64,000 bases of DNA, taken from Bradyrhizobium sp. CB1650. GTDB lineage: Bacteria; Pseudomonadota; Alphaproteobacteria; Rhizobiales; Xanthobacteraceae. Under the pieces are notes generated by a model. That model had not been told where the DNA came from, ran no database searches, and worked only from the letters and a program-made list of their open reading frames with translations. Position 1 is the stretch's first letter; each line of letters starts with the position of its first letter. The position numbers and the translations under genes are program-made. Below, one piece after another: positions 189 to 31,958 of the stretch. The stretch spans positions 930,001 through 994,000 of the forward strand of contig NZ_CP121695.1 of assembly GCF_029761915.1 (NCBI RefSeq), given 5' to 3'.

Positions 189-3100
189 TCACGGTCGGTT
201 CAGCGCAATCGACTCGGCGTGAGCAAACAGGTTCAGGCGGCGAAGGTCGTCGATCTTCGTCCACGCGCCTTCGAGGAGCTGGGCGCCGTGAACGACAAGA
301 GCCAGGCATTGCGCACGGCTCACGGCAACGTTGAAGCGGTTCGGGTTGAAAAGGAATTCGGTGCCGCGTGGCGCTTCTACCCCTCTCGATGTCGTCATCG
401 AGACGATCACGACCGCGGCTTCCTGACCCTGAAACTTGTCGACCGTGCCGACCTGGGCACCCGGCGGCAGGAGCTGCTTCAGCAGGTTCACCTGTAAGTT
501 ATAAGGCGCGACGATCAGAATGTCCTTCAGCGTCATCGGCGACACGTTATCGCCCCGCACGATTTCGTGGGTCTGTAATTCTCGAACCAGCGCCGCGATG
601 GCTTCCGCCTCGGCGCGGCTCGATTGCGTGCAGCCGTCATGCGCGATCGGAACAAAGGAGAGTCCGGCCGGCCGAAGGGCGTCGTGCGCGCCGGGCCGCA
701 GCCGAAGATAACGGGTCTTGGTCGAGGGGTGTGCTCCAAGCCGCCCGTCGTAGATTGCATCGGAAATAAATCCGCAAAGGGACGGATGCAGGCGGCGGCT
801 CTCATTCAATAGGATGCCGCGGTCGTCCGCCACGGTTGCCCGATCCTCCAGAAGGTACTCAAGGCTTGAGAGGCCGGTCTCGCCGGGATGCACGCCCTGA
901 ACGGGTTGGGGAAGCTGCATCTGATCGCCGACCAGCACGATGTTCGCTGCGGCGGCTCCCATTGCGACGAGATTGCCAAGGGATACCTGGCCTGCCTCAT
1001 CGATGAACAAATAGTCGCACGTTCCACGCTGATCGTCGCGGCAGAAATGAAACACCGTCCCGCCGACAAGACGATGGTGCGCCGTCACGTCCTCCGAATT
1101 GACGACCGTGACGACGTTGGCGCTGGTGTATTCCGTCTCGGGTTTGCCATCGTTGCCCTTCTTGGCGCCGCGGAAGCGGAATCCCGTCTCGGCGGCGCGC
1201 GCGTCCACCTCGGCAAGCAGTTTGTTGATCGCCTTGTGCGAGTTCGACGACACGCCGACGCGCTTGCGGGCGCGGAGCAGCGCGACGATCGCTTGCGCCG
1301 CCGTATAGGTCTTGCCCGTTCCAGGCGGTCCTTGAATGAAGAGATAGCTATGGTCGAGGTCGGTGACGGCGCGGATTACGGCTTCGGTCAGGGGCTCGTC
1401 TGCGCTGCGGATCGGCAATGCTGCGGTCCGGCCTCTCAAACGCGGCGCACGGCGCATCAGAATATCGAGTAATGCCTGATCGTCCTCGCTCGCCCCGCTG
1501 GCGAAGCGACTGGCAAACGCCAGCACGGCATCAGGAACGCCCTGCAGATCGATCGGCGCGGAAACAAGGCTGAAACGCTTCGGCATGGGAGGAGCCTTCG
1601 CGGCCCGGCGGAGCACGACGCGCCCATCCTCGGCTGAAATTTCCACGATGGCACCAGCATTGCCGATGGTTTCGGCGATCTTTGGTTTGTCCCCAACCTT
1701 GAGCTTTGTGTCCTGTGGTGGAAAGACATACGTCGTATCAAATGACCGCTTGACCGGCACCGGCACCGTGGACGTGTCAACCTGAAGACCGCCGAGGCTT
1801 TCGGCATCGTCGACCAGTTCGTCTTCGGACCAGGCCTGCCGCTCGAACAGCGCCCACCATCCAGGTTTCTGCGACCGCTGATGATACCACAACAGCTCGG
1901 CGAGAAGTTCGCGCACGCGCGCATCGCCGTGCGCACAGGCCCGTACGGCTGCCGCAAGAGCCTGCTTGCGGGCCTCACGCTGGGCGCGCTCGGCCGACTG
2001 CTCGCGCTTTTCGGGGGCGGTGTCGTCGACAATCTCAAGATTGACGCCGGCCGGGCGCTGCTTCTCGAGCCACGCGTGCAGGTGCGCGGTCGAAACGCAG
2101 TCGTCCTTGTTGTAGGCGGCAATCGAATCGAGAATGGTGTTGTCCTTCGTAAGGCACCACCGCTCGTATTCGACGATGCTATCTGACGCAGTCTGCACTT
2201 CGCCGCTGCGCTCGCGCCAATAAAGGCCTTCAAGGTCTTTGATCGAGTAGCTCTCGGTCGAGGCGCGCAGCGCCTGCACCACGACACGGTAAAGATCAAC
2301 GAAACGGCGCTCGCGCAGGAGCTGGTCGAGTTCCGCTTCCATCGTTGCGTACCGCATGGCGAGCCGCTTGAGCGCGGTTGTCTCGTAGGCGGCGTAGTGA
2401 TAAATGTGCGCGTTGGGGTGGCGACGCATCTGCTCCATCAGGAGACGCATCAGTTTTTCAAACGCCACCTTCTCCTCTACGGGGCTGTGGGCCCAGATCG
2501 GCTGGAAGGCAAGCTCGCGAGCTCCGTTCAAGCGGCCGTAGACGCCGAACAGATATTCGAGCCCTTCGCCGGCCAGAGGATCACCTTCCATGTCGAAGTA
2601 GAGATCGCCGTCGTCGGGCGCCGGGAGCATCGCGAAGCCGCGCCCCCGCGCGTAGGACAATAGTTCGAAGCTGTGTTGGCCGATCGCGCGGGCAGCGCCC
2701 TGAAGGCGGGCCTGCGCCGACAGTTTCGCCAGCGTTTCCGCGGCCATGCCGTCGACCTTGGTGCTTGCCGGCAGAGCCGCCAAGTGCGCGAGCGTGGTGA
2801 CGTCAGCCGTTGCGAGCTTGGCGACTTGTGCTCCGCTGATGCCGGCGACGAAGAACGGGCTGTCGGCCTCGCGCCAATCGGACTCACAGCGCGCCTTGTA
2901 GTCGCATTGTGCGCAAGCGGCACAGGGCTGCGACTTGGTGACGCGCTTCTCTTCGGCGACGAAGCGCTCGAAGCTGCGCATGAGCCGCCGAAGAATAAAT
3001 CTTGTGCGCCGGAGATCAAAGCGCACTGGCTCGCCGGCCGCGACGTGAATGACGCCGCCCTGCACGGGTATCCCGAGCATATCGTCCAGCAACTCGGCAT

Positions 3101-3512
3101 AGACCCCGAGTTGCAACACATATTCGCCTTTGGCCGATCGCGAGAGCTTCGCGTCTTCGGGCTCAAAGGTAGACGCGTCGTGGTCGCCGTTTTGCACTAA
3201 GAAGTCCGGATAGCCGAGCCACGCCTCCTTCGTCAGCGTGCCCTGATATATGAGCTTCGCGCCGCGCGCGATGGCTTCCCGCGTCAGTCGGGTCCGGTCC
3301 GCGAGACTGCCGCCCGAAGGGATGCGCTCGGCGGGACCGAAGCGCTCTTCGAGCCGCGCGAGCACAGCGGCCTCATGTTCGAAGCCCTTGTCGCGGATGA
3401 GCTGCAGGGTCGCATCCGCGTCCTCGGGCGGCTTGATGCCAGCAAGCCAGAGCGCGGTCTGGTGCGGGCAGCCGAGATAGTCATTGAGGCGTGAGGCGGA
3501 AAGCGGATGCAT
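189..3512 (-). CDS. RecB-like nuclease fused to SF1 (Dna2/Upf1-like) helicase
   Basis: This 1107-residue protein is a predicted DNA-processing enzyme. The N-terminus (about 1-230) is a TM0106-type RecB-like nuclease: PDFLV, an acidic-x-K element (EDAKL) and the LQLGVYAEL helix typical of PD-(D/E)xK enzymes. A Cys cluster (CAACAQCDYKARC, near 200) could hold Fe-S or zinc. An RNase H-like segment follows (DLYFDMEGDP, near 307). The C-terminal half is an SF1 helicase with Walker A GPPGTGKT (near 727), Walker B IDEAGQ (near 837), VGDQMQLPQP, GTVDKFQGQE (near 1024) and NVAVSRA. The start MHPLSASRLNDYLGCP matches the family N-terminus. It lies 51 bp downstream of the WYL gene, probably in one transcript. 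The family is known from predicted defence and repair contexts; the substrate here is unknown. Confidence 0.88.
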   Translation of the reverse strand: MHPLSASRLNDYLGCPHQTALWLAGIKPPEDADATLQLIRDKGFEHEAAVLARLEERFGPAERIPSGGSLADRTRLTREAIARGAKLIYQGTLTKEAWLGYPDFLVQNGDHDASTFEPEDAKLSRSAKGEYVLQLGVYAELLDDMLGIPVQGGVIHVAAGEPVRFDLRRTRFILRRLMRSFERFVAEEKRVTKSQPCAACAQCDYKARCESDWREADSPFFVAGISGAQVAKLATADVTTLAHLAALPASTKVDGMAAETLAKLSAQARLQGAARAIGQHSFELLSYARGRGFAMLPAPDDGDLYFDMEGDPLAGEGLEYLFGVYGRLNGARELAFQPIWAHSPVEEKVAFEKLMRLLMEQMRRHPNAHIYHYAAYETTALKRLAMRYATMEAELDQLLRERRFVDLYRVVVQALRASTESYSIKDLEGLYWRERSGEVQTASDSIVEYERWCLTKDNTILDSIAAYNKDDCVSTAHLHAWLEKQRPAGVNLEIVDDTAPEKREQSAERAQREARKQALAAAVRACAHGDARVRELLAELLWYHQRSQKPGWWALFERQAWSEDELVDDAESLGGLQVDTSTVPVPVKRSFDTTYVFPPQDTKLKVGDKPKIAETIGNAGAIVEISAEDGRVVLRRAAKAPPMPKRFSLVSAPIDLQGVPDAVLAFASRFASGASEDDQALLDILMRRAPRLRGRTAALPIRSADEPLTEAVIRAVTDLDHSYLFIQGPPGTGKTYTAAQAIVALLRARKRVGVSSNSHKAINKLLAEVDARAAETGFRFRGAKKGNDGKPETEYTSANVVTVVNSEDVTAHHRLVGGTVFHFCRDDQRGTCDYLFIDEAGQVSLGNLVAMGAAAANIVLVGDQMQLPQPVQGVHPGETGLSSLEYLLEDRATVADDRGILLNESRRLHPSLCGFISDAIYDGRLGAHPSTKTRYLRLRPGAHDALRPAGLSFVPIAHDGCTQSSRAEAEAIAALVRELQTHEIVRGDNVSPMTLKDILIVAPYNLQVNLLKQLLPPGAQVGTVDKFQGQEAAVVIVSMTTSRGVEAPRGTEFLFNPNRFNVAVSRAQCLALVVHGAQLLEGAWTKIDDLRRLNLFAHAESIALNRP

Positions 3513-3563
3513 GGCGCGGGAGAATAGAAATGGGGTGCGACAAAATTGGACGTAGGCTCTGGG

Positions 3564-4586
3564 CTAGGATGCCTTCTTCGAGTCAAGGACGTAAGTGAAA
3601 CGCAGGGGTTCTTCGTGATGCGCCAGCGCAGCGCGCAATTCGGTGGTGATCTGCTGGCGCAACGAAACAGGCTCGACGATCTCGATCTTGTTGCCCCATG
3701 TAAAGAGATGCCACGCCAGCTCCAGCATTCCACTCGCGCGGAAGCGCACGATGACGCCGCCTTCGGGATGCTCTTCGACGACCTGGCTCGAATGGAATCG
3801 GTGGTTCTTGAAATCGTCCATGCCGCCCGGGAGCACATGCAGGACCACGTCTTCCTGCTCGCCCTCGAAATAGGCGAAGGCCGTATTGGCGAACGCCGCG
3901 AGGTCGAAGTCCGCCGGAGGAGCCGCAGTCTCGTCAAGACATTCGAGCTGCTCGATCCGATCGAGCCGCCAGTGCTTCGGCTTGCTCGTGCCGGTATCCG
4001 CGCCGATCAGATAATTCATACGGCCAAAAATGATGCCATAAGGCACGACATCGCGCGAAGCTCCCGGCCTTGAGCCGCCGCGGTAGATGAAGCGCAACAA
4101 TTTCAACTCCAGGAGCGCACGGCGAAGCATCATAAGGGTGGCTGGGTCCTCCGTTGGTCGCGGTCCTGCCTGTACCGCGATGCGTTCGGCGCGCAGCAAA
4201 GCCTCAACGTCGGTCTCGGTGGCACGGCGGCGCCCGTGCCGCATGGCCGCGCGGATTTTCTTCTCAAGCCCGGCGAGCGATGCAGCGCGCCCGGTCGCTC
4301 CGGACTCTTGCAGTTCGGTAACGACGACGCCGAGGTCGCTCAGCTCTTCGGTGGTCGGGTCCTGAAAGAAACCGTCGAGACCCTTCGGTATATGGAAACG
4401 CTTCTTCGGGTGATCCGGGATTTCTTCCATTTGCGGGAACACCGTGCGGATCGTGTCCCGCATGCGCTCGACGGTGCGGCGCTCGCATCCCGTCACCTGG
4501 CACATCTCGTCCAGCGTCAGGCCCTCGGCGCTGCTCGCCAGGGCGCGCGCCAATTCCAGGATGTTCCGTGTCGTGTCGTAGCGCAT
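3564..4586 (-). CDS. WYL-domain transcriptional regulator
   Basis: The protein has an N-terminal HTH (LTLDEMCQVTGCERRTVERMR spans residues about 24-44) and a central WYL-type domain with LLRFIYRGGS, PYGIIFGRMNYLIG and a C-terminal WCX-like strand region ending near LAWHLFTWGNKIEI. WYL proteins bind nucleic acid or nucleotide ligands and often repress or activate defence islands. I chose the ATG at 4586 (MRYDTTRN) because family members usually begin there; an in-frame start at 4664 would add 26 residues. It is divergent from the ubiquitin-like cassette and upstream of the nuclease/helicase, so it is the obvious candidate regulator of both. That role is inferred. Confidence 0.85.
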   Translation of the reverse strand: MRYDTTRNILELARALASSAEGLTLDEMCQVTGCERRTVERMRDTIRTVFPQMEEIPDHPKKRFHIPKGLDGFFQDPTTEELSDLGVVVTELQESGATGRAASLAGLEKKIRAAMRHGRRRATETDVEALLRAERIAVQAGPRPTEDPATLMMLRRALLELKLLRFIYRGGSRPGASRDVVPYGIIFGRMNYLIGADTGTSKPKHWRLDRIEQLECLDETAAPPADFDLAAFANTAFAYFEGEQEDVVLHVLPGGMDDFKNHRFHSSQVVEEHPEGGVIVRFRASGMLELAWHLFTWGNKIEIVEPVSLRQQITTELRAALAHHEEPLRFTYVLDSKKAS

Positions 4587-4687
4587 CGCGTGTACGTCCA
4601 AATCTGACGCAGCACGGTAGCAAAGTACAGGCTCGCGGTCACCTTGACCGAAAAGCGGCGTCAAAACAGATAGATACGGAGAATAGA
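4587..4687. promoter_or_regulatory. Divergent promoter region between WYL gene and Ub-like cassette
   Basis: This 101-bp gap separates the divergently transcribed WYL regulator and the ubiquitin-like cassette and must contain both start regions unless the WYL gene starts at 4664. An AT-rich stretch (AACAGATAGATACGGAG) immediately precedes the cassette start and includes a weak GGAG ribosome-binding site. No clear palindrome was seen. Confidence 0.4.
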
Positions 4688-5440
4688 ATGAGCCACGAAA
4701 CCGATCCCCTTCCGCACGGCGAAGGCGAAGAGCCGAATCGCCACGACCGCGAGGGGGGGCATGGCAATCATCATCACGATGGCGAGCGCGAGCATCATCA
4801 TCCGCATCATGAGGTGTGGAAGCTGAATGTTCAGGGTGTCATCATCGAGTCGCAGAAGCCCGAGATTGTCGTCCGGGAGGCGATCCAGCAAGCCGGCTTC
4901 AATCCCGATGCGCCGTGGATCATCGTGCTCAAGGTGGCGGGCGAGCCGAAGCGGGAGGTGGATCTCTCCTTTGTTATCGACCTGCGCCACAAGGGCATCG
5001 AGAAGCTCCGCCTTACCCCGCGGCAGATCAACAACGGGGAGATGTGCGGGCAGCGTCGCGCCGCTTTCGCGATGCTGCCGCAGGACGAGGCGCTCCTTGA
5101 TCGCCTCGGCTTCGACTGGGAAACCCTGGTCGATGCCGGCCGCCGCTGGCTGATCATCCGCAACTACATGCTTCCGCCGGGGTATCGGGTTGCGACAGCG
5201 ACGATCGGCATTGAGGTGCCGGTCAGCTATCCGGGCGCCCAGCTCGACATGTTCTACTGCCATCCGCCGCTCGCGCTTTCCTCCGGCGGCGCGATCCCTC
5301 AGACGCAGCAGATCGAGACGGTCATCGGCTTGCCTTTTCAGCGTTGGTCGCGCCACCGCCAGTGGGACTCGGCGCGCGATACGTTGGCGACGCACCTCGC
5401 TCTCGTCGATGAATCTTTGCACCGTGAGGTCGGGCAATGA
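4688..5440 (+). CDS. Ubiquitin-like (multiubiquitin) domain fused to prokaryotic E2-like domain
   Basis: A 250-residue protein with a very His-rich N-terminus (residues 25-41 contain HHH, HHHPHH). It is followed by a beta-grasp ubiquitin-like domain of the multiubiquitin type (about 42-115; VWKLNVQG, then DAPWIIVLKV) and a C-terminal domain like prokaryotic E2 family E (about 118-250). That domain includes GFDWETLVDAGRRW, PPGY, PVSYPGAQLDMFYCHPPL and a final HRQW. Cys191 in the DMFYC motif is a candidate conjugating or structural residue. Comparative genomics of such operons predicts transfer of the Ub-like module by the E1/JAB partner encoded next. The ATG at 4688 is chosen because the upstream in-frame extension is not family-like. 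The stop overlaps the next ATG by 4 bp. Confidence 0.85.
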   Translation: MSHETDPLPHGEGEEPNRHDREGGHGNHHHDGEREHHHPHHEVWKLNVQGVIIESQKPEIVVREAIQQAGFNPDAPWIIVLKVAGEPKREVDLSFVIDLRHKGIEKLRLTPRQINNGEMCGQRRAAFAMLPQDEALLDRLGFDWETLVDAGRRWLIIRNYMLPPGYRVATATIGIEVPVSYPGAQLDMFYCHPPLALSSGGAIPQTQQIETVIGLPFQRWSRHRQWDSARDTLATHLALVDESLHREVGQ

Positions 5441-6828
5441 ATCGGCGCCACACCCTGGTGCTGCCCGCGAAGCTGGCGGACGAGCTTCGCGCGCATCTTT
5501 TTCCCGGCGACGGTCTCGAAGCCGCCGCGCTCTTGCTCTGCACGGTGACGGGCCAACGCCGCCAGAAATGGCTCGGCCGCGAAGTTATTTGCGTTCCTCA
5601 CGCAGGCTGCACGCGCCTGCCTGACTTCATCACCTGGCCGGGTGAATATGTGGAGGTGGCGATCGACCGAGCGGCGGCCCGCGGCGACGCGGTCATCGCC
5701 GTCCACGCGCATCCGGGTGGGCTCTTCGCCTTCTCTGCTGCCGACGACGAAAGCGACCGTATCCTGATGAGTGCCATCCGGCACGGCACCGACCGCACGG
5801 CGGGCTCGGCGATAATGATACCGAGCGGAGCGATGCGGGCGCGTATCTACTATCAGGACGACCGCGCCACGCCGTTCGACTTCATGATGAAAGGCGGAAC
5901 TGATATCGAAACCTGGTGGAATGACGGGGCGACGGCCTCAGGCCCGTTGAAGCCGGCGATGGCTTTCACCGGTGAAATGCGGACGTCGCTCGGGCGTCTC
6001 AGCGTTTGCGTGATCGGCGTGTCGGGGACCGGCTCGATTGTTGCCGAGCAGCTCGCCCGCCTCGGTGTCGGCGAGATCATTCTCATCGATTTCGACAGGA
6101 TCGAGGAGCGTAACCTCAACCGCATCCTGAACGCGACGCACGCCGACATCGGCTCCCTGAAGGTAGAGATGTTTGCCGACGCCATCCGGCGCTACCGATC
6201 CGATGGCGAGGTGGTCAGCGTGCCGCACTCCGTCGCGACGCGCGAAGCCGTCCTCGCGGCGTGCGAGGCCGATATTCTATTCTCCTGCGTTGATTCCGCG
6301 GAAGGGCGGCATATCGCTGACCGGCTGAGCGCCTGTTTTGCGATGCCGCTGTTCGACGTCGGCGTTGCGATCCCGACCGAGGCGTTGCCGATCGGTGGCC
6401 GCCGCATCGCGGAAGTCTACGGTCGGGTTGACTATGTCTATCCGGGCGGCTCAAGCCTGATGGATCGCGGCGTCTACGATGCGGCGCTTCTGGAGGCCGA
6501 GTACCTCGCGCGCACGGCCCCCCAGGCGCTCGCCAGGAAAATCGCGGACGGCTATTTGCGGGGAATGACGGAGGAGGCGCCGGGGGTCATCACACTCAAC
6601 ATGCGCGCGGCCTCGGCCTGTGTCGTCGAATTTATCGCGCGGCTGTTTCCCTTCCGCGAGTTCGCGAACGAAACGCGGGCACGCACAATCTTCATGCTTG
6701 CTGAAGGCGATGAAGACGTGTTTGCCGAAAGCCAGTTCCAAAATGGACTCCGCTTTCCGGTGGCCGAAGGCGCGGCCGAGCCACTCCTCGGGTTACCCGC
6801 GCTGGCCATGCAGCGGAGAGTCGCATGA
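5437..6828 (+). CDS. JAB metallopeptidase-E1 (ThiF-like) adenylyltransferase fusion
   Basis: This 463-residue protein combines two activities of a ubiquitin-like cycle. The N-terminal JAB/JAMM domain has Glu28 and the zinc motif H90-A-H92-P...S100-x-x-D103, expected to trim or remove Ub-like modifiers. The C-terminal E1-like domain (about 180-440) has the nucleotide-binding GVSGTGS loop (194-200), LIDFDRIEERNLNR (216-229) and LFSCVDSAEGRH further on, consistent with ATP-dependent adenylation of the Ub-like C-terminus. It overlaps both neighbours by 4 bp (ATGA), indicating translational coupling. JAB-E1 fusions beside multiubiquitin/E2 genes are a known predicted bacterial arrangement; activity here is inferred. 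Confidence 0.9.
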   Translation: MNRRHTLVLPAKLADELRAHLFPGDGLEAAALLLCTVTGQRRQKWLGREVICVPHAGCTRLPDFITWPGEYVEVAIDRAAARGDAVIAVHAHPGGLFAFSAADDESDRILMSAIRHGTDRTAGSAIMIPSGAMRARIYYQDDRATPFDFMMKGGTDIETWWNDGATASGPLKPAMAFTGEMRTSLGRLSVCVIGVSGTGSIVAEQLARLGVGEIILIDFDRIEERNLNRILNATHADIGSLKVEMFADAIRRYRSDGEVVSVPHSVATREAVLAACEADILFSCVDSAEGRHIADRLSACFAMPLFDVGVAIPTEALPIGGRRIAEVYGRVDYVYPGGSSLMDRGVYDAALLEAEYLARTAPQALARKIADGYLRGMTEEAPGVITLNMRAASACVVEFIARLFPFREFANETRARTIFMLAEGDEDVFAESQFQNGLRFPVAEGAAEPLLGLPALAMQRRVA

Positions 6829-7160
6829 AGAAAAAACCGCTTTGGTTGCGCCGGATTATAGCTGCCATCACGCCCCGTCGCGCACTCACAATCGTCGAAG
6901 GGGATATGCTGCCTGAGAGAATGCCGCTTTGGAATCTTGTCATGGCTCGCGACGATGATGACGACTGGTCGGTCGGCATGCGATGTCCTTGCGGGTGCGG
7001 GCAGCGGCTTGAGATGATGGTGTTGAAGGAGGTAAAGCCGCGCTGGGACGTTTCCACTGATTCGCGCGGCCACGTGACGCTGCATCCTTCGGTCTGGCTG
7101 CGCGAGGGATGTAGGTCCCACTTCTGGGTGCGGTCGGGCAAGGTGATCTGGTGCGATTGA
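6825..7160 (+). CDS. DUF6527-like Cys-rich protein of the Ub-like cassette
   Basis: A 111-residue protein with a basic N-terminus (MKKKPLWLRRI), then CPCGCGQRLEMM (residues about 51-62) and a C-terminal CRSHFWVRSGKVIWC element. The four or five Cys and the His suggest zinc binding. This pattern fits the DUF6527 family, which recurs as the last gene of multiubiquitin/E2/JAB-E1 operons. Its role is unknown; a zinc-ribbon or RING-like adaptor is one possibility, but nothing in the sequence proves it. It starts inside the E1 gene's stop (ATGA overlap), so it is the third gene of the unit. Confidence 0.75.
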   Translation: MKKKPLWLRRIIAAITPRRALTIVEGDMLPERMPLWNLVMARDDDDDWSVGMRCPCGCGQRLEMMVLKEVKPRWDVSTDSRGHVTLHPSVWLREGCRSHFWVRSGKVIWCD

Positions 7161-7357: not shown

Positions 7358-8488
7358 ATGCGAATCATCCATTCCGCCGACTGGCAGATCGGCAAGGTAT
7401 TCAAGCAGTTCGACGCAAAGGAGGAGACGCTGCGGCAGGCGCGTCTGGTCGCGATCGAACGCCTGGGTGTCCAGGCCAGGGAGAACGGCGTTCGGCACGT
7501 CCTCGTCGCCGGCGACGTTTACGACAGCGAGGCGCCCAGCGCCCACACGCTGCGCGCGCCGATCGAGCGCATGAAGACGTTCGGGGACATTCACTGGCAC
7601 CTGCTGCCGGGTAACCACGATCCCCACCGACCGGAGGGCGTCTGGGATCGCGTCGCGCAGCTCGGGCCGCCCGACAACATCCACCTCCATCTTGCGCCGG
7701 GAGCGACGGTGCTCGACGAGGACGCAGTCCTTCTGCCAGCGCCGCTGCTCCGCAAGAGCGAATTCGACGACATAACGGCATGGATGGACGCGGCGCCGAC
7801 CCCGCCCGGCGCGCTGCGGATCGGGCTTGCGCACGGATCCGTAGTCGACTTCGGCAACGGAGGCGAAGCTTCCAACCCGATCGATCCCACGCGCGCGGCG
7901 AAGGCGCATCTCGACTATCTCGCGCTCGGCGACTGGCACCGCACTCTGCAGGTGGGCGCGAAGACATGGTACGCGGGAACGCCCGAGCCAGATCGCACCG
8001 GCGGCCAGGAGCAGGGGACCGCGCTCCTCGTCGACATCGCGGGTCCGGGCGCGCCTCCCTCGATCACCCGGCTCGTCACCGGCACCTACCGCTGGATCAC
8101 GCGCTTGGAGCGGATCGACGACGAAGCGGCATCCGCCGATCTCGATCGGCGCCTGCGAGAGGAGCCCGATCTCGCGCGGCTAATACTACGCCTTAAGCTG
8201 GAAGGCAGTCTGCCGTTGGCCGCATACGGCGACTTCCGACGCCGCATGGTCGATCTCGAAGCCGCGGTGTTCGATCTGGATCTGGATGAGGCCTCGCTGG
8301 CGGCGCGGCCGACGCAGGCGGATCTGGAGGCCATCGATTTCGACGGCGTGCTGCGGCGTTCCGCCGATCGACTCAAGAAGGTCGTCGACGACTCGTCCGC
8401 CGCACCCGATCTGCGGCGGCGCGCCGAGGAGGCGCTCGTCGAACTCTATCTCCGCGTGGCCGGCGCTGTCCGCGAGGAGGCCGCCTGA
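7358..8488 (+). CDS. SbcD/Mre11-like metallophosphoesterase (DNA exonuclease)
   Basis: The protein carries calcineurin-like phosphoesterase motifs in order: HSADWQIGK near the N-terminus (family DxH motif), VLVAGDVYDS (GDxxD), LLPGNHDPHRP (GNHD), GLAHGSV, and YLALGDWHRT (GDxH). It is 376 residues. The start at 7358 has AAGGG eight bases upstream; the longer frame from 7316 adds an unlikely basic leader. Its stop overlaps the start of the SMC-like ATPase gene, the classic sbcDC/mre11-rad50 layout. The pair probably processes DNA ends or hairpins. It lies 197 bp after the Ub-like cassette, so joint transcription is possible but not shown. Confidence 0.88.
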   Translation: MRIIHSADWQIGKVFKQFDAKEETLRQARLVAIERLGVQARENGVRHVLVAGDVYDSEAPSAHTLRAPIERMKTFGDIHWHLLPGNHDPHRPEGVWDRVAQLGPPDNIHLHLAPGATVLDEDAVLLPAPLLRKSEFDDITAWMDAAPTPPGALRIGLAHGSVVDFGNGGEASNPIDPTRAAKAHLDYLALGDWHRTLQVGAKTWYAGTPEPDRTGGQEQGTALLVDIAGPGAPPSITRLVTGTYRWITRLERIDDEAASADLDRRLREEPDLARLILRLKLEGSLPLAAYGDFRRRMVDLEAAVFDLDLDEASLAARPTQADLEAIDFDGVLRRSADRLKKVVDDSSAAPDLRRRAEEALVELYLRVAGAVREEAA

Positions 8489-11166
8489 TGCTCATCAACG
8501 CACTCAGCGTCGAAGGAATCGGGCGCTTCGCCGGCGTCGCCCGCGTGGACGGGTTCGGTGCAGGCGTGAACGTACTGGCCGCGGGCAACGAGGTCGGCAA
8601 GTCCACACTCTTCAAGGCCATCCGCGCGTGCCTGTTCCTCCGTCACGACAGCAAGACCCAGGAGCTAAGGGATCTCGGATCCGACGATAGCCAGCTTCCC
8701 GCCACCGTCGAACTGGACTTCGACCACGAGGGTCGGCGCTACGTTATCCGGAAGAGCTTCCTCCGTTCTCCCTTCGCCGTCCTGACGGAGGACGGCCGCG
8801 AGATCGCCCGCGCCGGTGAGGCCGACAAGGCGATCTGGGACATCCTGGGCATGGCGCCCGGGAGCGGGCGGAGCATCGACGACGGCGCGTTCGGTCTTCT
8901 ATGGGTAGGGCAGGGCGCCTCGTTCAGCGCGCCCGTTCCAGGTTCGGGCGCTTCTTCGCTCCTCAACTCTGCCATCGAATCGGAGGTCGGAGCGCTCGTT
9001 GGCGGGGAGCGCGCGCGGCTGGCGATCGACGAGATCACCGGCGAAATACGGCGAAACATGACCGACAGCGAGCGCGGTCCGCGCAGTGACGGCCCGCTCG
9101 CCCGCGCCCGCGAACGGCTTGAGCATTGGCGAAAGGCGGAAGCCGACGGCTTGGCCAAGGTCGGCGCCCTCGAAAAGCAGTTCGCCGAACTTGCGCAACA
9201 CCGCAGGCGGCATCGCGAAGTCACGGATCCGGTCGCCGCGGCGCACATGACAGAGGGGCTCACGGACGCCCGAAACAAGCTGCGCGAAGCGCAAGCCGCG
9301 CACCAGGAAATCCGGAGCCTCGAGGCGGAGACATCGGCGGCGCGGCGCGCGCTCGAAGGCGCGGCTCAACGCCTGCGGCAGCTCCGCGAAATCGCCGAGC
9401 GCGTGGATCGCAACCGCTCTCTCGAAGCGGATCTGAACGGAAGCCTGCCTGGAATTCTCGCGCAGGAGGAGGAAGCCCGGGCATCGCTCGCTCGCACCGT
9501 GGAGGCGTCAGCGGCGACCGAAGGCGAAGCCAAGGAGCTGACCGTCCGGGAGCAGCATCTCGGACGATTGGCGGCCGCGGTGCTTCGCGCCTCGCGCAAA
9601 GACGAATTGATCCGGCGGCTGGACGTGCTCGAACGGGCCGCCGGCAGTCTCAGAGCGATCGACGCCCAGCTCTCGCAGTTCCGCGTCGATCCGGAGACCG
9701 CCGCCAGGCTCGACGACCTCGACCGTCAACTGGCGTCGTTGGACGCGCAGCTATCGGCGGCCGCGGCGACCCTGGCGATCGAAGTGGGCCCGGCGGGTGC
9801 CGGGCAGGTGCGGGCCGGTTCGCTCGGCGTCGACGGCAACCACGTCACGGCCGTGCTGGCGCCGACGAAGATCACGATCGGCGATATCGCGACGATCACG
9901 GTCACGCCAGCTCTCCATCCCCGGCATGAAGCGCGCAAGCGCCTCGATGCCGACAGGTCGGCGCTCCTTGCTGCGTCCGGTGTGGACGACGCCGCGGAGG
10001 CTCATGCGATCCTGACGCGCCGTCGCGATCTCGATCACGACCGTCGTGGCGTGCTCGCCGAGCTGAAGAGCCTCGAAGCGAGCGACGATCCGACGAGAGC
10101 GGGCGCCGCGGTGAGGTCCGAGCTCGCCGAGGTGCAGGCGGCCATCGACGTCGTCCTCGCGGCGACCGCCCGAGCGGCGCTGCCTGGTCAGGCGGAGATC
10201 GATTCCGAAAGACTCGGTCACGAGCAGAGGCGCGCTTCGCTCGAAGCTCGACGCGAAAAGCTCGCGGCCGCGAGGCAGGAGCATCAGCGAGCCGTGGAAG
10301 CTGCGGTCGTGCGCCGCGCCGACGTTTCGACCAGACTGGAATTCGTGCGTAAGAGCATTGCCGAGGACCTCGTCCTCTGTCCCGACGCCGACCGCGCGGC
10401 CCGCGACGCCGCGCTGGTCGCCGAAGTGGCGGCCTGTGAAACCATGCTGCAGACCAAGGCGGCCACGCTGGCCGCCGTCCGGCAGGCGGCCCCAGATGCA
10501 GCCGAGATCGACCGCCGCGAACTGCGTTGCTCCCGGCTAGAGAAGGCGCTCGAAAACCACAACGCGGAGCTCATGTCGCTGGAGCGTGACATCGGCCGGT
10601 TGACCGGACAGATCCAAGCGGCCGGAGGCGACGGCATCGGCGAAGCGTACGCCGCCGCGCAAGAACAGCGGAAGATCGCCCAACGCGAATGCGCGCGCAT
10701 CGAGGAACGCATCGCTACGCTGCAGTTGTTGCGCGACACGGTCGGCGACTGCCTCGCAGAAGGCCGCGAACGCTACTACGAGCCCGTTCGGCGTCACCTG
10801 CGGCCCTATCTGAACGATCTCTTTCCGGGAGCTGAACTCGAGCTGGGCGATGGCTTCGCTATCACCGGTATGAAGCGCACGCGTTCGGAGAGCTTCAGGC
10901 GGCTTTCCGGCGGAACCCAGGAGCAGATCGCGGTACTCGTGCGCCTGGCCATGGGAACGTTGCTTGCCGAACGGGGAGGCAACGTGCCGGTCGTCCTCGA
11001 CGACGCTCTGGTCTATTGCGACGACGAACGCATCAACATGATGTTCGACGCTCTCAGCCGCGCCGGCCGGCATCAACAGGTCATCGTCCTAACCTGTCGA
11101 TCGCATTCATTCGCGCCGCTGGGGGGAAACAAGCTGCGCGTGCAGATGGACGATGAATTCCATTAG
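8488..11166 (+). CDS. SbcC/YhaN-like AAA ATPase with coiled coil
   Basis: An 892-residue SMC-like ATPase, expected partner of the upstream nuclease. N-terminal P-loop at about 33-41 reads AGNEVGKST, where RecF/SbcC-type proteins usually have G at the first position. Long Ala/Glu/Arg-rich coiled coils fill about 190-420 and 480-750, separated by a beta-rich insertion (about 430-480, containing VLAPTKITIGDIATITV). I see no CxxC zinc hook at the middle. The C-terminal lobe has the signature RLSGGTQEQI (near 805) and Walker B VVLDDALVYCDD (near 835). It overlaps the nuclease gene and ends the island's intact block. Confidence 0.87.
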   Translation: MLINALSVEGIGRFAGVARVDGFGAGVNVLAAGNEVGKSTLFKAIRACLFLRHDSKTQELRDLGSDDSQLPATVELDFDHEGRRYVIRKSFLRSPFAVLTEDGREIARAGEADKAIWDILGMAPGSGRSIDDGAFGLLWVGQGASFSAPVPGSGASSLLNSAIESEVGALVGGERARLAIDEITGEIRRNMTDSERGPRSDGPLARARERLEHWRKAEADGLAKVGALEKQFAELAQHRRRHREVTDPVAAAHMTEGLTDARNKLREAQAAHQEIRSLEAETSAARRALEGAAQRLRQLREIAERVDRNRSLEADLNGSLPGILAQEEEARASLARTVEASAATEGEAKELTVREQHLGRLAAAVLRASRKDELIRRLDVLERAAGSLRAIDAQLSQFRVDPETAARLDDLDRQLASLDAQLSAAAATLAIEVGPAGAGQVRAGSLGVDGNHVTAVLAPTKITIGDIATITVTPALHPRHEARKRLDADRSALLAASGVDDAAEAHAILTRRRDLDHDRRGVLAELKSLEASDDPTRAGAAVRSELAEVQAAIDVVLAATARAALPGQAEIDSERLGHEQRRASLEARREKLAAARQEHQRAVEAAVVRRADVSTRLEFVRKSIAEDLVLCPDADRAARDAALVAEVAACETMLQTKAATLAAVRQAAPDAAEIDRRELRCSRLEKALENHNAELMSLERDIGRLTGQIQAAGGDGIGEAYAAAQEQRKIAQRECARIEERIATLQLLRDTVGDCLAEGRERYYEPVRRHLRPYLNDLFPGAELELGDGFAITGMKRTRSESFRRLSGGTQEQIAVLVRLAMGTLLAERGGNVPVVLDDALVYCDDERINMMFDALSRAGRHQQVIVLTCRSHSFAPLGGNKLRVQMDDEFH

Positions 11167-22770: not shown

Positions 22771-23388
22771 CTAACAGATCGATCGAAAGATGCCGTCCTG
22801 GCGTGTGGGAAAGCCGAGACCGGTCGCAAAGGGTCAACCGCGCCGTTCAGCCTCGTCCAACAGTAAAGCACGGATCTACAGCGGACGTGCGGGCGATTTC
22901 CAACTTGTTCGGCTCCGGGCCCAGGCCGTGTAGAAACTCGACGTCATCGTCTTGAGATAGATTGTGATTCCTTGAGACACAGACAGAGAAGATCGAGCGT
23001 TCTCGCGAACGACTGGCAAACAACCTCCCATGGAATTGTTTTCTATCGAATCTCCTGACGTCGGAGTTTCCACACAGTCTGGGCCAACTCCAGACATCTA
23101 ACGGAGCAGCAGTCGTCGCCTCCGCACGGGACGTTATTAGGTCGTGGCCGCGCACTTACTGCGACCAGCGATGCGCAAATTGACATCGGTGAGGATGACA
23201 GCCCCGGCGAACGTATCGAGCGCCGTCTCGAACGGCGCGGCAACCATGCTCTTGACGTCAAGAACCTGGCTGTCCGCCACCGCGTGCTGAAGGTGCGGGA
23301 GTATGTGCCATCCACCAAAGAAAGGGATATAACTATTTCCGTAGTCTCCAGGGTTCGCTTAGGCCGCACCGAGATACCGAGGGGAGCC
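22771..23388. other. 618-bp intergenic region upstream of cyclase 1
   Basis: No recognisable gene. The plus-strand frame of the downstream cyclase stays open for some distance upstream (about 23156-23388) without homology I can name, and the minus-strand frames lack ribosome-binding sites. It must contain promoters for the GNAT gene and cyclase 1. Confidence 0.4.
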
Positions 23389-26300
23389 ATGCAGCAGATT
23401 GCGGACTGGCTCAACGCACTTGGCCTAGGGCAATACGCGCAGCGCTTTGCCGAGAACGACATTGATCCAAGCGTTCTGCGTGATCTCACCGACCATGACC
23501 TCGAGAAAATCGGTGTCTCGCTCGGCCATCGCAGGAAGATATTGCGCGCGATTGCGGAGCTCGATGAGATCAGACCGAGATCCGCTCCTGCTCCTCGGAC
23601 CGAGCCGGAAAGACGTCAGCTCACGGTGATGTTCGCTGATCTTGTTGGTTCGACAGCGCTCTCGACAAGACTCGACCCTGAGGACTTGCGGGAAATCATT
23701 AGCGCGTACCACCGCTGCTGTGCCGAGCAGATCGAGAAATTTGGTGGGTTCGTTGCCAGATACATGGGCGACGGCGTACTCGCATATTTCGGCTACCCGC
23801 GGGCGGATGAAGACGATGCTGAGCGCGCGGTATGCGCCGGGCTGGCATTGGTCACGGCCGTGGCAGGACTCGATGCCGGCCCAGAGGGAATGTTGCGAGT
23901 GCGAGTTGGCATTGCCACTGGTTTGGTGGTCATAGGGGAGGGCGCGTCGCAGGAACACGAGGTCGTCGGTGAGACCCCGAATCTGGCCTCGCGGCTTCAG
24001 GCGCTGGCCGAGTCACAGACCGTGGTCATCGACGGCAGCACCTGTCGCCTCGTCGGTGGACTCTTTGAGTATGTCGCTCTCGGGAGCGTGTCCATCACAG
24101 GCTTCAGCGCCCCGGTGCCGGTCTGGCGAGTGATCGGTGCGAGCGCGATCGATAGCCGCTTCGAGGCCTTGCGCGTCGGCAGGACGCCCCTGCTGGGCCG
24201 CGATGAGGAGATCGAGCTGCTGATGCGCCGCTGGCAGCAAGCAACACGCGGCGATGGCTCGGTCATGTTGATATCGGGTGAGGCCGGGATCGGCAAATCG
24301 CGCCTCGCCGAGACTGTGGTGGAGCGCCTGAGCGATGAGCCACACATCCGCTTGCGCCGTTTCTGCTCACCGCACCACCAGGACAGCGCGCTTTTCCCGA
24401 CCATCTCACAGCTCGAGCGGGCAGCGGGATTCCGGCGAGACGATACGGACCAGCAACGGTTGGACAAGCTCGAGGCGTTGCTCGCGGAGGCAAGCGCTGA
24501 CCTCAGCGACGCTGTCCCTCTGATCGCGGACTTGCTGTCCGTGCGGGTCGGCGATCGCTATCCACCGCTCAGCTTCACCCCGCAGAAGCGCAAGGAGAAG
24601 ACGCTTGGGGTCCTCCTGGCTCAGCTCGAGGGACTGGCGGCGCGCCGGCCCGTGCTGATGGTGTTCGAGGACGTGCACTGGATCGACCCCACCTCGCTCG
24701 ACCTGTTGGACCTCATCGTCGACCGGGTGGCAACCCTCCGGGTGTTGCTGATCGTCACGTTCCGGCCAGAGTTCGCGCCGACCTGGATCGGGCGCTCGCA
24801 CGTGACATTGATCAGCCTCAGTCGTCTGCCGCGTCGACAACGTGCCGAGATGATCATGCGGGTGACCGGCGGCAAGGCGCTGCCCCAGGAGATCGCCGAA
24901 CACATCATCGATCGGACCGATGGCGTACCGCTGTTCATCGAGGAATTGACCAAGGCGGTGATCGAGAGCGGCATGCTGACCGACGCAGGCGACCGCTTTG
25001 ACGCGACGGGACCCGTGCCTCGGCTCGCCATCCCGACCTCGCTCCAAGCGTCGCTCCTGGCACGGCTCGATCGCTTGGCACCCGTGCGCGAGATGGCGCA
25101 GATCGGAGCCGCCCTCGGGCGATCGTTCTCGCATGAGCTGATTAGCGCCGTCGCGGCGATGCCGCAGCGGCAGGTGGACGCGGCTTTGGCGCAGCTCGTG
25201 GGCGCCGAATTGGTCTTCCAGCGGGGCACCCCGCCCGATGCCGAGTACACCTTCAAGCACGCGCTGGTCCAGGACGCAGCCTATAGCACCTTGCTGCGCG
25301 GTCGACGCCGGCAGATCCATGCCCGCATTGCGACAACGCTGGAGAGCGAGTTCCCTGAAATCGTGGCCACTCAGCCGCAACTCATGGCCCACCATTGTGT
25401 CGAGGCCGGGTTCAACGAGAAGGCGGTCAGCTACCGGCTCAAGTCCGGCCAGCAGGCGGTCGCACGATCGGCGATGACGGAAGCGGTGTCGCAGTTGCAG
25501 AGGGGCCTGGAATTGCTGGCGAACATGCCCGAGGAGTCCCGGCCCCTTGAGCACGAGCTTGACCTGCAAATCGCCCTCGGACGGGCCCTGATGGCAACCC
25601 GTGGGTATTCGGCGCCGGTCGTGGCCGACACCCTCGTCAGGGCGCGAGCGCTCGCCGAGCGGTTCGATCGACCGGATCGTCTCGCTCCGCTGCTCTATTT
25701 CCAATGGGGTTTCCATATGGTTCGGGCCGAGCACGAGCTGGCGGTGTCCCTTGCCGAGCAGTTGGAGACATTGGGCCAGACAAGAAAAGATCAAACCATT
25801 CAGTTGCTGGGCCACTATATCCATGGCGCCAGTTGCTACTTCCGCGGGGAGTTTGTGACAGCGCGCGCCCTTCTCGAGCTGTGTGACGGCTTGAGACATC
25901 CGGCCGCTCGCGCGACTTGCGCCGCCATAGCGGTGGCCGATCCGCACGCGGCGAGCCTGGGTCACCTGGCGTTGACATTGACGCTTCTGGGCGATCTCGA
26001 TCAGGGACGCACACGCGTGGACGAGACGTTGTCGGAAGCCCGCCGGCTCAACCATCCGTTCACGGTGGCCTTTGTGTTGAGCAAGGTGTGTGCGGTCGAG
26101 GCGGCCGCCGGCTGGCTGCATCATGCACGGCGGCACGCGGAGGAGCTGGAGACTCTCTCGAATGAGCACGGATTTCCGCTCTGGTTGGGCTTAGGACTGC
26201 TTCACCATGGTCGGTCAGTGACAGCACTTGGACAGGCCCAGGATGGCCTCGCGGTGCTCGCGAGAGGGCTCTCGGTGCTTCGTTCTGCCGGAGCCGTCGT

Positions 26301-26703
26301 ACACACGCCGCTCGCGCTCTGCTTTCTCGCCGAGGCTCACACGAAGGTCGGGCATCTGCAGGAGGCGCAGAATTGCCTCGTCGAGGCTGCACAGCTCATC
26401 GAGACGACCGACGAGCGGTCCAGTGAGGTCGAGTTGCATCGACTTCGAGGCGATCTGATGAATGCGCGAGGCGACCAAGCCGCTGCGGAGCAAAATTATT
26501 ATCGAGCGCTCGCTGCGGCGAAGCGCCAGAGCGCGAAGACATTTGGGCTGGGCGCTGCGACCAGCCTCGTCCGTCTGTGGCGCGAGCAAGGCAAGCGCGC
26601 GGAAGCTCGCGACCTCCTCGCGCTGGGGTATGGCTGGTTCACCGAAGGCTTCGACACGCCGCTCCTGCGGGATGCCAAGGCACTGCTCGACCAGTTGGCT
26701 TGA
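23389..26703 (+). CDS. SAM / class III nucleotide cyclase / P-loop ATPase / TPR protein (1)
   Basis: A 1104-residue signalling protein. Residues 1-62 form a SAM domain (WLNALGLGQYAQRFAENDI). A class III adenylate/guanylate cyclase domain follows (about 78-240) with metal-binding Asp in VMFADLVGST and ARYMGDGVLAYFG. Next comes a STAND/AAA-type ATPase with Walker A SGEAGIGKSRLAE (near 306) and Walker B VLMVFEDVHWIDPTS (near 425). The C-terminal half is TPR-like (about 680-1100). The ATG at 23389 has GAGGGGA upstream and is where the SAM domain begins. It is the first of three paralogues in this window. It is expected to make cAMP or cGMP in response to a signal sensed by the ATPase/TPR part; the signal is unknown. 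Confidence 0.92.
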   Translation: MQQIADWLNALGLGQYAQRFAENDIDPSVLRDLTDHDLEKIGVSLGHRRKILRAIAELDEIRPRSAPAPRTEPERRQLTVMFADLVGSTALSTRLDPEDLREIISAYHRCCAEQIEKFGGFVARYMGDGVLAYFGYPRADEDDAERAVCAGLALVTAVAGLDAGPEGMLRVRVGIATGLVVIGEGASQEHEVVGETPNLASRLQALAESQTVVIDGSTCRLVGGLFEYVALGSVSITGFSAPVPVWRVIGASAIDSRFEALRVGRTPLLGRDEEIELLMRRWQQATRGDGSVMLISGEAGIGKSRLAETVVERLSDEPHIRLRRFCSPHHQDSALFPTISQLERAAGFRRDDTDQQRLDKLEALLAEASADLSDAVPLIADLLSVRVGDRYPPLSFTPQKRKEKTLGVLLAQLEGLAARRPVLMVFEDVHWIDPTSLDLLDLIVDRVATLRVLLIVTFRPEFAPTWIGRSHVTLISLSRLPRRQRAEMIMRVTGGKALPQEIAEHIIDRTDGVPLFIEELTKAVIESGMLTDAGDRFDATGPVPRLAIPTSLQASLLARLDRLAPVREMAQIGAALGRSFSHELISAVAAMPQRQVDAALAQLVGAELVFQRGTPPDAEYTFKHALVQDAAYSTLLRGRRRQIHARIATTLESEFPEIVATQPQLMAHHCVEAGFNEKAVSYRLKSGQQAVARSAMTEAVSQLQRGLELLANMPEESRPLEHELDLQIALGRALMATRGYSAPVVADTLVRARALAERFDRPDRLAPLLYFQWGFHMVRAEHELAVSLAEQLETLGQTRKDQTIQLLGHYIHGASCYFRGEFVTARALLELCDGLRHPAARATCAAIAVADPHAASLGHLALTLTLLGDLDQGRTRVDETLSEARRLNHPFTVAFVLSKVCAVEAAAGWLHHARRHAEELETLSNEHGFPLWLGLGLLHHGRSVTALGQAQDGLAVLARGLSVLRSAGAVVHTPLALCFLAEAHTKVGHLQEAQNCLVEAAQLIETTDERSSEVELHRLRGDLMNARGDQAAAEQNYYRALAAAKRQSAKTFGLGAATSLVRLWREQGKRAEARDLLALGYGWFTEGFDTPLLRDAKALLDQLA

Positions 26704-28585: not shown

Positions 28586-31500
28586 CTAAATCGTGAACTC
28601 GGACAATGAAGCCTGCGCGCGGCGCTCGAAGATGACTGCACCCTGGCGCTTGGCGATATCGGCAGCGGTTGCGAAGGCTGATCGTGCCTCAGCCTTGTTG
28701 CCGCGGTCGAGCGCCAGAAGGCACGCGCCGCGCAGGCGATAGATCTCGGGCAGGTAGATGCCGATGCCGGCCTCGTCGATTCCTGCGATCGCGCGGTCGA
28801 GATGACCGAGCGCGTCCGCGGACCGTCCTGCGGCAAGCAGAACTTCGGCTGCGAGGCCAAGATAATATTGCGGCAGTGGACCGGCCGCTGTGGCGTTGGC
28901 GATCTCGGTATCGATCAGCCGCACGGCGTCTGCTGCGGCTGCGCCGTTTGCGGTGGCCCACCCGACCAGGATCAGGCTGCTGGCGCGCCATGGCGGCAGG
29001 CCGAACTTGTCGGCCAGCGCGGCCGCGCGATGGGCCGCCGCGTAGGCAGCCTCGCGGTCTCCGCCAAGCTGGTGGCCCATACCGGTGCTGTGCAGCCCGT
29101 GCGCAAGGCTGTTTGGATGATCGAGCATTTCGGCGAGTGCGATGGCTTGCGTGAATTGCTGTCTTGCGTAGTGTTCTTCACCCGACAATTGCCACGAATT
29201 GCCGCATTGCGCATGCGCGCAGACGCAGGGATCGTGGCCGCCAAACGCGTGCGCAAGGTGACGGTGCTGCGTCACATCATAAAGCGAGATGGCGTGCCGG
29301 CTGCCCTCGAGCACACCGCGGACATCGCCGCGAAAATGCGCGGTCGAAAGCTGGCAATGATAGGCTTCGAGCAACAACTCCCGATCGGCGGACTGTTGCG
29401 CGAGCGATACCAGTTCGTTGGCGCGGTCGCGCGCCAACGCCGTCTTGCGGCGGAGATTTGCGTTGATCCAAAGGCCCCATTTGGCCTGAAAGGATGCGGG
29501 GCGATCGCCGAGCTCCTCGCCGATCTCGGCGGCTTTGGTATAGGCCGTTTCGGCCTGCATACTCTGCAGGCCGTGCGCGACCACCGACGCCGAGCCAAGC
29601 TTCAGCCAGAAGTCCAGCTGTCGCCGCATGCCGTTCTGTGGCGGCAGGGTCTTGGCGAGCTCAAGACCCGCGGTGAAATGCGCAATCGCTTCCGCATAGG
29701 CCGAGCGACCCACGGCCTGGTCGCCGGCGCACATACGATAATCGCAAGCGAGAGAAGGTATCCCCGCTTCGCCGAAATGATAGGCCAGCAACTCCGGTTC
29801 GCGCGCCGCGAGATCGCCAAAACGTTGTTCCAGAGCCTGGGCGACGCGCCCGTGCCATGCCCGGCGGCGCATCAGCAACAGGCTTTCATAGGCGGCGTCA
29901 CGCACCAGCGCGTGCTTGAAGTTGAAGCTCCGCTCGAGGCCGCGCTCCTCGGGAAATACAATTCCCGCGGCGACCAGCTTTGCCAGCATGTCTTCCAGCT
30001 CGTCGTTGTCCTTGCCAGCAACCGCGTCCAGCAAGGCGAAGGTGAATTGCCGGCCGATCACCGCGGCAATTTGGGCCACCTCGCGCGCGCCGCCGAGGCG
30101 GTCGAGGCGGGCCATTAGCGAGTCCTTCAGTGTCGCCGGCACGGAATCCCCGCCCGCCGATTCCATTACGCTTCGGGTCAGCTCTTCGACGAACAGGGGC
30201 ACGCCATCGGTTTTGGCGATGATCGCGGCGACCGTGTCCGCCGCCAGTCCATGCGCGGCAGCGACGCTGGCGACCACCTGCATGCATTCGGGACGGCCGA
30301 GGCGTCCAAGCGTGATCAGCGTGGCGTGTGGCCTTGACAGCCAGGACGGGGTGAAGTCCGGCCGCGCCGACACCACGACAAGGAGCCGCGCGCGGCTGAT
30401 GCTGTCGGCCAATCGCGTCATCATTTCGAGCGTGGTCGCATCGATCCAGTGTGCGTCTTCCAGCACGATCAGCACCGGATCGTTGTCGCTGGTCCGCGTC
30501 ATGATCTCGATGGTGAGCGCGAGCGTCGCGGCCTTGCGCTGCGCCAGCGATGCGGCGGGAGCTGGCTCAGTCAGCGGGATCGACAACAGCTCGGCCAACA
30601 GCGGCAGCGCAGCCGGATTGGCGATGTGCCGCGCGGCAAGCAGGGCGCGGAGTTTCTCGGTGCGCGCATCCGGCGGATCGCCAGGCCCAAGGCCGGCGGC
30701 GCGGTTGAGATGCTGGATGACGGGGTAGAGCGCGCTGTCGCTGTGATAGGGAGAGCACTGCAGATTGATGCGTGCATGAGCTTCGGCTGCGAGCTCTTGC
30801 TGTAGCGCCTCGATCAAGTGCGATTTGCCGATGCCGGCTTCGCCGATCACGGTCAATATCTGGCCTTCGCCTTGCTGTGCCAGATGCCAGCGTTCGCGCA
30901 TCAGGCCCACTTCATGGGCCCGGCCGATCAGCGGCAGGCCTCCGGCGCGGATCGCCGCAAAGCGGCTTTCGATCGGGGTTTCCTTGCATACCTGCCAGGC
31001 CGACACCGGGCGGCTAAAGCCCTTCAGCTCGTGCTCGCCGAGGTGGGTAAGCTCGAAAAGGCCGCCTAACAGCTTTTGGGTCGACTCGCTGACGAGAATG
31101 CAGTTCGCGCTGGCGAGCGCCTGCAGCCTTGCCGCGAGGTTGGGCGTTTCACCGACGATGGTCCGCTCCTGCGCCATGCCGGTACCGATGATTTCGCCGA
31201 CCACGACGAGGCCGGTGGCGATGCCGATCCGCGCCTGCACGGTCGTGCCGTCAGGCAATTCAATTGCGCCGACTTCCGACAGAATTCCAATCCCGGCGCG
31301 GACGGCGCGCTCCGCCGCGTCCTCGAAGGCGCGCGGGAAACCGAAATAGGCCAGCACGCCATCACCCATGAACTTGGCGACGAAACCACCGTAACGCCCG
31401 ATCGCACCGGCCACCGCATCCTGGTATCGCCGGATCAGGCCGCCGAGCAGCTCCGGATCGAGCTGCGCCGACAGCGCCGTGGAGCCGACCATATCGGCGA

Positions 31501-31825: not shown

Positions 31826-31958
31826 GCAGTCGGCCCCCCAGCTTCCCGGAAGGCAGATTGCCACACTTTTATAGAACTTGGGGACTGGATTTCGATGAGC
31901 GCAAGCAAGGGACGTGCCTGAAGGCCGCCAATGGGTCAAAACCGGCGATCCTTGTACG

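Follow-up and report, generated by a model that had tools for sequence, protein, structure and literature searches.

A Bub ubiquitination-like operon in one conserved module with a DriD-like regulator and a nuclease-helicase in Bradyrhizobium sp. CB1650, predicted to respond to DNA damage

A stretch of 64,000 nucleotides of the Bradyrhizobium sp. CB1650 genome (contig NZ_CP121695.1, positions 930,001 to 994,000; hereafter the window), part of a 9.43-Mb single contig, carries a ubiquitination-like cassette of the Bub type together with two genes that accompany it. The cassette consists of three genes on the forward strand joined by ATGA overlaps: bubAB (4688..5440), whose product comprises a His-rich tail (residues 1-43), a beta-grasp ubiquitin-like (Ubl) domain (44-117), a linker and an E2-like Prok-E2_E domain (about 122-250); bubCD (5437..6828), which encodes a JAB/JAMM protease (H90, H92, S100, D103) fused to a ThiF/E1-like adenylyltransferase; and a DUF6527 gene (6825..7160) with the Cys/His set C54, C56, C58, C96, H99 and C110. 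On the reverse strand, a WYL gene coding for a DriD-like transcription factor of helix-turn-helix (HTH)-WYL-WCX architecture (3564..4586) diverges from bubAB, and is followed by a gene for a TM0106-type protein that combines a RecB/Cas4-like nuclease, an RNase H-like domain and an SF1 helicase (189..3512). The overlapping triplet and its divergent WYL gene had been described in the same arrangement by an earlier inspection of the letters alone (the sequence-only reading).

Profile and fold comparisons assigned one beta-grasp Ubl and a Prok-E2_E domain to BubAB, and Prok-JAB and ThiF/E1 domains to BubCD, and the solved Bub proteins of Citrobacter matched the window proteins both in sequence and in fold. 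BubCD could be aligned with Citrobacter BubCD (Protein Data Bank (PDB) 9ea4) over residues 6-457 with an E value of 1e-129, and its four JAMM residues are all in place. The third gene product matched PF20137 (DUF6527; 3.9e-23) and is 42% identical to that of the third gene of the Citrobacter Bub operon, a locus that likewise has DUF6527 in this place. Having a Ubl homologous to BubA, a BubB-type E2-like Prok-E2_E domain, a JAB-E1 fusion with an intact JAMM motif and this third gene, the cassette is, by sequence, a member of the known Bub (bacterial ubiquitination-like) family. Its Prok-E2_E domain is the single match in the source genome (E<=0.001). The Ub-like/E2, JAB/E1 and DUF6527-like identities and the JAMM residues given by the sequence-only reading were thus borne out by Pfam profiles and the Citrobacter matches; its view of such operons as comparative-genomics predictions was right as to their ubiquitination-like kind but not as to their being only predicted, since the Bub family has solved structures. 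The Type II Bil system (BilABCD) of bacterial ubiquitination likewise has Ubl, E1, E2 and JAB parts. That the E1 and Ubl serve sulfur transfer or some other purpose in which no protein is conjugated is very unlikely here, given an E2-like domain and a JAB domain fused to the Ubl and the E1, respectively, and nearly end-to-end Bub matches. In an alignment of 35 DUF6527 sequences (the query and 34 chosen among 120 listed of 506), C54, C56, C58, C96 and H99 were invariant and C110 nearly so, and because of this the protein probably binds metal.

The Citrobacter system (PDB 9ea4, 9ea5, 9ea8, 9eae, 9eav and 9d59) shares with the window the gene order, a Ubl-E2 fusion with an NNG|E junction and DUF6527 in third place. 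Its BubAB is a multi-Ubl fusion of 362 aa, whereas the window protein has one Ubl and a His-rich tail instead of the first domains. We take the Citrobacter protein to have three Ubl domains. Differences are also seen in C191, the DriD-like regulator and the nuclease-helicase, which belong to the window; Citrobacter has V at the position of C191, and upstream of its plasmid-borne Bub operon a hypothetical and a winged-HTH gene, a pair that, from sizes and order, is a candidate for CapK+CapS. Multiubiquitin (PF14452) gave no match in the window BubAB at E<=1 with the Pfam model, in agreement with the single Ubl noted before. The two folds that the sequence-only reading had placed at residues 42-115 and 118-250 were both recovered, with slightly different limits. 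We aligned BubAB with the 120 listed of its 1098 matches (n=121 with the query); the Ubl-E2 region was alignable in every one of these best-matching sequences. The single-Ubl fusion, being present in all 121 nearest sequences examined, is a common and widespread sub-form of Bub; the description as a minimal fused form is right as to the single Ubl, and the fusion itself is found in Citrobacter too. Among the matches listed, the nearest one from a named strain, Bradyrhizobium sp. UFLA03-84, is 88% identical.

The two BubAB domains meet at a predicted maturation site, NNG|E (codons N115-N116-G117-E118; 5030..5041, forward strand), recognized by conservation and by unfused relatives. N115, N116 and G117 are invariant in the 121 sequences and E118 is kept in 118, the residues directly after it (119-123) vary, and disorder was predicted in the BubAB model at 1-39 and 114-122. 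Two more distant Bub relatives (L026 and L027; 35-37% identity) have a TGA stop right after the Gly aligned to G117, beyond which the E2 continues in the same frame, and represent a natural unfused Ubl / E2 form. Because NNG is conserved and the Ubl of these two ends at the aligned Gly, the comparison points to a cut after G117, which would be made by the JAB domain of BubCD. The fusion might instead stay uncut, with the Ubl serving in cis for docking or allostery and never being released as a modifier, in keeping with a fused Ubl that as translated lacks a free C-terminus; we consider this improbable in view of the invariant NNG before a variable stretch, the exact Ubl end in L026 and L027, the JAB domain encoded next door, and the PDB entries in which Citrobacter BubA (155-229) and BubB (234-361) are separate chains with continuous residue numbering, a close Citrobacter gene being one 362-aa frame.

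The N-terminal tail (4688..4816, forward strand), within which disorder was predicted, has 12 His in 43 residues; His makes up 28.7% of the tails pooled over the 121 sequences, and 108 of them have at least five. In the E2-like domain, C191 of the DMFYC motif is kept in 120/121 near relatives, and its position holds T, V, F or A in numerous others, Citrobacter among them. Since it varies across Bub, C191 is unlikely to be the catalytic Cys of the whole family, and DMFYC, noted earlier as an E2-like motif, finds no support as an E2 active-site motif of general value.

The WYL protein is 51% identical to Caulobacter DriD (165/322 residues), and its five best PDB matches are all DriD (9pfq, 8tp8 and three pieces; E 2e-100 at full length), followed by PafBC at an E value of about 6e-6. 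According to PMC12340889, DriD is a transcription activator of Caulobacter that binds single-stranded DNA (ssDNA); its site, ATACGAC-N7-GTCGTAT, extends over the -35 and keeps a constant spacing to the -10, a conserved G is reported at -14 of its promoters, and it activates the operon divergent from driD among at least five reported targets. The window protein and DriD thus have in common the domain architecture, a divergent target operon and, as shown below, the class of operator; the targets predicted here are the Bub operon and the nuclease-helicase, at the only two perfect sites of the genome.

Intergenic regions were scored with the published Caulobacter DriD consensus, p values being obtained from shuffles. 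A DriD-type operator lies before bubAB (GTACGTCCAAATCTGACGCAG; 4592..4612, forward strand), recognized by comparison over 13 loci, and is followed, at a constant distance from the operator centre, by a candidate -10 (CAAAGT; 4621..4626, forward strand). Over the 13 loci the bub site scores sum to 130, compared with a maximum of 114 in 2000 shuffles; the best single sites reach 12 of 14 (L005, L007 and L053) or 11 (L008 and L054), and six of the 13 have p <=0.0095. A second operator, first met when the genome was scanned with a relaxed version of the bub-site pattern (six matches in 9.43 Mb, fewer than the 12 of the control, two of the six at this locus), stands directly before the nuclease-helicase gene in 13/13 loci (sum 142, maximum of 1000 shuffles 111); the window copy (CTACGTCCAATTTTGTCGCAC; 3535..3555, reverse strand) has a p of 0.007. 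A consensus derived from all sites and read in gene direction fits 26/26 promoters of the 13 loci without any further hit in 276,592 bases. Over the whole 9.43-Mb genome it is matched perfectly at just two places, both at this locus. All these operators are of DriD class (TACGAC-N7-GTCGTA type) with an exact 7-bp spacing. As in the reported DriD-activated promoters, the operator-to--10 distance is fixed at both promoters, with A at +20 in 23/26 and T at +24 in 25/26; the placement of the operator over the -35 depends on this inferred -10.

Because the WYL protein is DriD-like and the operators cover the predicted -35 of two promoters, activation is favoured, presumably by the ssDNA-bound protein. 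The opposite sign was considered as well, namely a CapW-like repressor that would sit on the operator in unstressed cells and be released by ssDNA. CapW/BrxR proteins are likewise WYL regulators beside putative immune operons and have been reported beside Bub, but they are repressors; according to a 2026 paper on Bub, 219/544 Bub operons carry CapW (WYL) or CapH+CapP, regulators relieved by DNA damage. An operator over the -35 could equally block RNA polymerase, and of the ten compared DriD positions published as RNA polymerase contacts, six are kept in the WYL protein and four differ. On the other side stand the succession of DriD and PafBC among its best solved relatives, with none of its 17 PDB matches at E<=10 bearing the name CapW or BrxR (a CapW sequence as such was not compared), the DriD class of the operator with its exact spacing and the fixed distance to the -10 at both promoters. 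Repression therefore seems unlikely, and DriD-like activation is the sign we retain. The regulatory role that the sequence-only reading gave to the WYL gene, as repressor or inducer of the set, is in this respect carried further.

The nuclease-helicase matched the family profile of TM0106-type RecB-like nucleases (TIGR03491) with 268 bits (cut-off 97). We take its domain layout to resemble that of Dna2. No link between the TM0106 family and ubiquitin-like systems was met in the literature covered.

The order nuclease-helicase, WYL, divergent bubAB, bubCD and DUF6527 gene recurs. We defined a near single-Ubl clade of 15 sequences including the window, with BubAB at least 60% identical over the best stretch; as L050 repeats L002, 14 loci are non-redundant. 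The order is kept in 13 of these, the lone exception, L006, having an Xre-like gene in place of the WYL and nuclease-helicase genes. In an all-against-all comparison of the 12 fully flanked module loci (the thirteenth, L003, was left out as short), the five module families and shadow frames thereof were common to 12/12, and no sixth family was. When an identity matrix is drawn up over the 12 loci for each of the five proteins, these matrices correlate with r of 0.77 to 0.94. Within the genus, near BubAB (at least 69% identity, next 52%), WYL (at least 59%, next 38%) and full-length nuclease-helicase (at least 63%, next 44%) occur in the same 8 of 265 genomes. Further from the clade, no WYL or nuclease-helicase match was found within the available sequence of two distant single-Ubl loci (L056 and L057; 30-35%), of the longer multi-Ubl loci L009, L011, L012, L013, L055 and L089, or of the short L022 and L024.

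The WYL and nuclease-helicase genes could also form an independent pair that merely adjoins the Bub operon. Such a view would accommodate L006, where the Bub part stands without them, a distant divergent DriD-like/RecB-like pair (31% and 41% identical; L079, 5656-10109) whose 16-kb surroundings gave no Bub match, and the frequency in the genus of RecB-like family members without Bub (59/265 genomes at E<=1e-60). It is made rather improbable by the confinement of the close WYL and nuclease-helicase forms to the 8 genomes with near single-Ubl BubAB, by the order kept in 13/14 clade loci and by the closely similar operator at both promoters of each locus.

A single conserved unit joins Bub to an enzyme that cuts DNA and to a regulator predicted to act as a DNA-damage switch, which suggests tagging turned on by damaged DNA. 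We hence favour, with a probability of about 60%, a five-gene DNA-damage-inducible Bub module in which Ubl conjugation is paired with a nuclease-helicase. DNA damage or phage attack would expose ssDNA, which would be bound by the DriD-like factor; this would then bind the 21-bp operators, which cover the predicted -35 at two promoters, and switch on both the divergent bubAB-bubCD-DUF6527 operon and the RecB/Dna2-like nuclease-helicase gene downstream of the WYL gene. The JAB half of BubCD would cut BubAB after Gly117, yielding a mature Ubl and an E2-like protein, the E1 half would adenylate Gly117, and the E2-like domain would help to pass the Ubl to targets, from which JAB might also be able to remove it. 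The small DUF6527 protein may be a partner that binds metal and perhaps acts as an adaptor for substrates, while the nuclease-helicase would act on the same DNA problem.

Several points weigh against this module. The window bub operator taken alone scores 9/14 against the Caulobacter consensus (p 0.24), so that it is convincing only through comparison with the other loci, and 7/13 bub sites taken singly have p values of 0.13 to 0.71. The search patterns, both the loosened one and the derived consensus, were tuned on the same sites; three one-mismatch sites of the derived consensus lie elsewhere in the genome, and with up to two mismatches the genome count of 36 is background (control 42). G at +17, matching -14 of the Caulobacter promoters, is present in only 5/26 promoters, and at the four differing RNA polymerase contacts of DriD the WYL protein carries the substitutions G18S, S118G, R122A and P125T. 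Two loci of the same clade (L020 and L021) have tails without any His, the 13 loci and 8 genomes are non-independent owing to shared ancestry, and conjugation, cleavage, induction and phenotype are all predictions from sequence.

The module may serve repair or phage defence, or the two together; the sequence does not decide between these outcomes. The anti-phage function assigned earlier found no support; the 2026 paper states that phage protection by Bub is not demonstrated and allows its role to be either immunity or a stress response of a more global kind. A bolder proposal, which we regard as doubtful, would make the module a bacterial analogue of ubiquitin signalling in DNA damage, where ssDNA and the DriD-like factor induce a Ubl ligase simultaneously with a Dna2-like nuclease-helicase, the Ubl is placed on repair or replication proteins, possibly on the nuclease-helicase itself, and the His-rich tail provides metal-dependent control replacing Ca2+ filaments. 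Multi-Ubl relatives form Ca2+-dependent filaments.

Bub was already known and its single-Ubl fusion is widespread; what is new, as far as our searches reach, is the DriD-type activator and the shared operator before a nuclease-helicase. No description of the module was found among the papers listed on DriD with ubiquitin-like systems, DriD with CapW, or His-rich Ubl, though the tables of Ye et al. (2026) and Gong et al. (2025) may contain it. For this form of Bub an inducer is predicted (ssDNA, via the DriD-like activator), and its defined regulon of two promoters takes in a DNA enzyme; therefore, conjugates should be sought after DNA damage, on DNA repair proteins. In the debate on Bub function, between immunity and global stress response, the module gives a time and a place to look for them.

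Other observations concern relatives and neighbours of the module. The L006 operon (7716-10599), a single-Ubl Bub operon with exchanged regulator, is from a Devosia metagenome-assembled genome, the Xre-like assignment being made by eye. Adjacent DriD-like/RecB-like pairs similar to that of L079 occur in G081 and G206, as judged by coordinates, and L082 (6916-7905) and L083 (6124-7140) have, in two genomes, DriD-like WYL genes (35-37%) with neighbours that are alike, a UvrD/AddA-type gene being seen downstream by eye. Possible module remnants are a stretch 64% identical to nuclease-helicase residues 908-1103 (L084, 6861-7451) and a run of 51 residues that shares 71% identity with the BubAB E2 part (L010, 9001-9153; L030, 1504-1656); L010 has no other module gene within 16 kb. 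Outside the 8 genomes, G093 has one 203-residue nuclease-helicase piece at 67%. BubAB relatives were found in 98 plasmid records, none with 60% identity or more, and none in the phage collection at E<=1e-5; the multi-Ubl operon of L011 is on a conjugative Citrobacter plasmid. In the window, genes for an SbcD-like phosphoesterase and an SbcC/Rad50-like ATPase lie just 3' of the DUF6527 gene (7358-11166) and are not common to the other module loci. Further downstream, three large proteins with a SAM domain, a guanylate/adenylate cyclase domain and AAA_16 are encoded inside 18 kb (23284-26703, 28586-31939 and 37896-41240).
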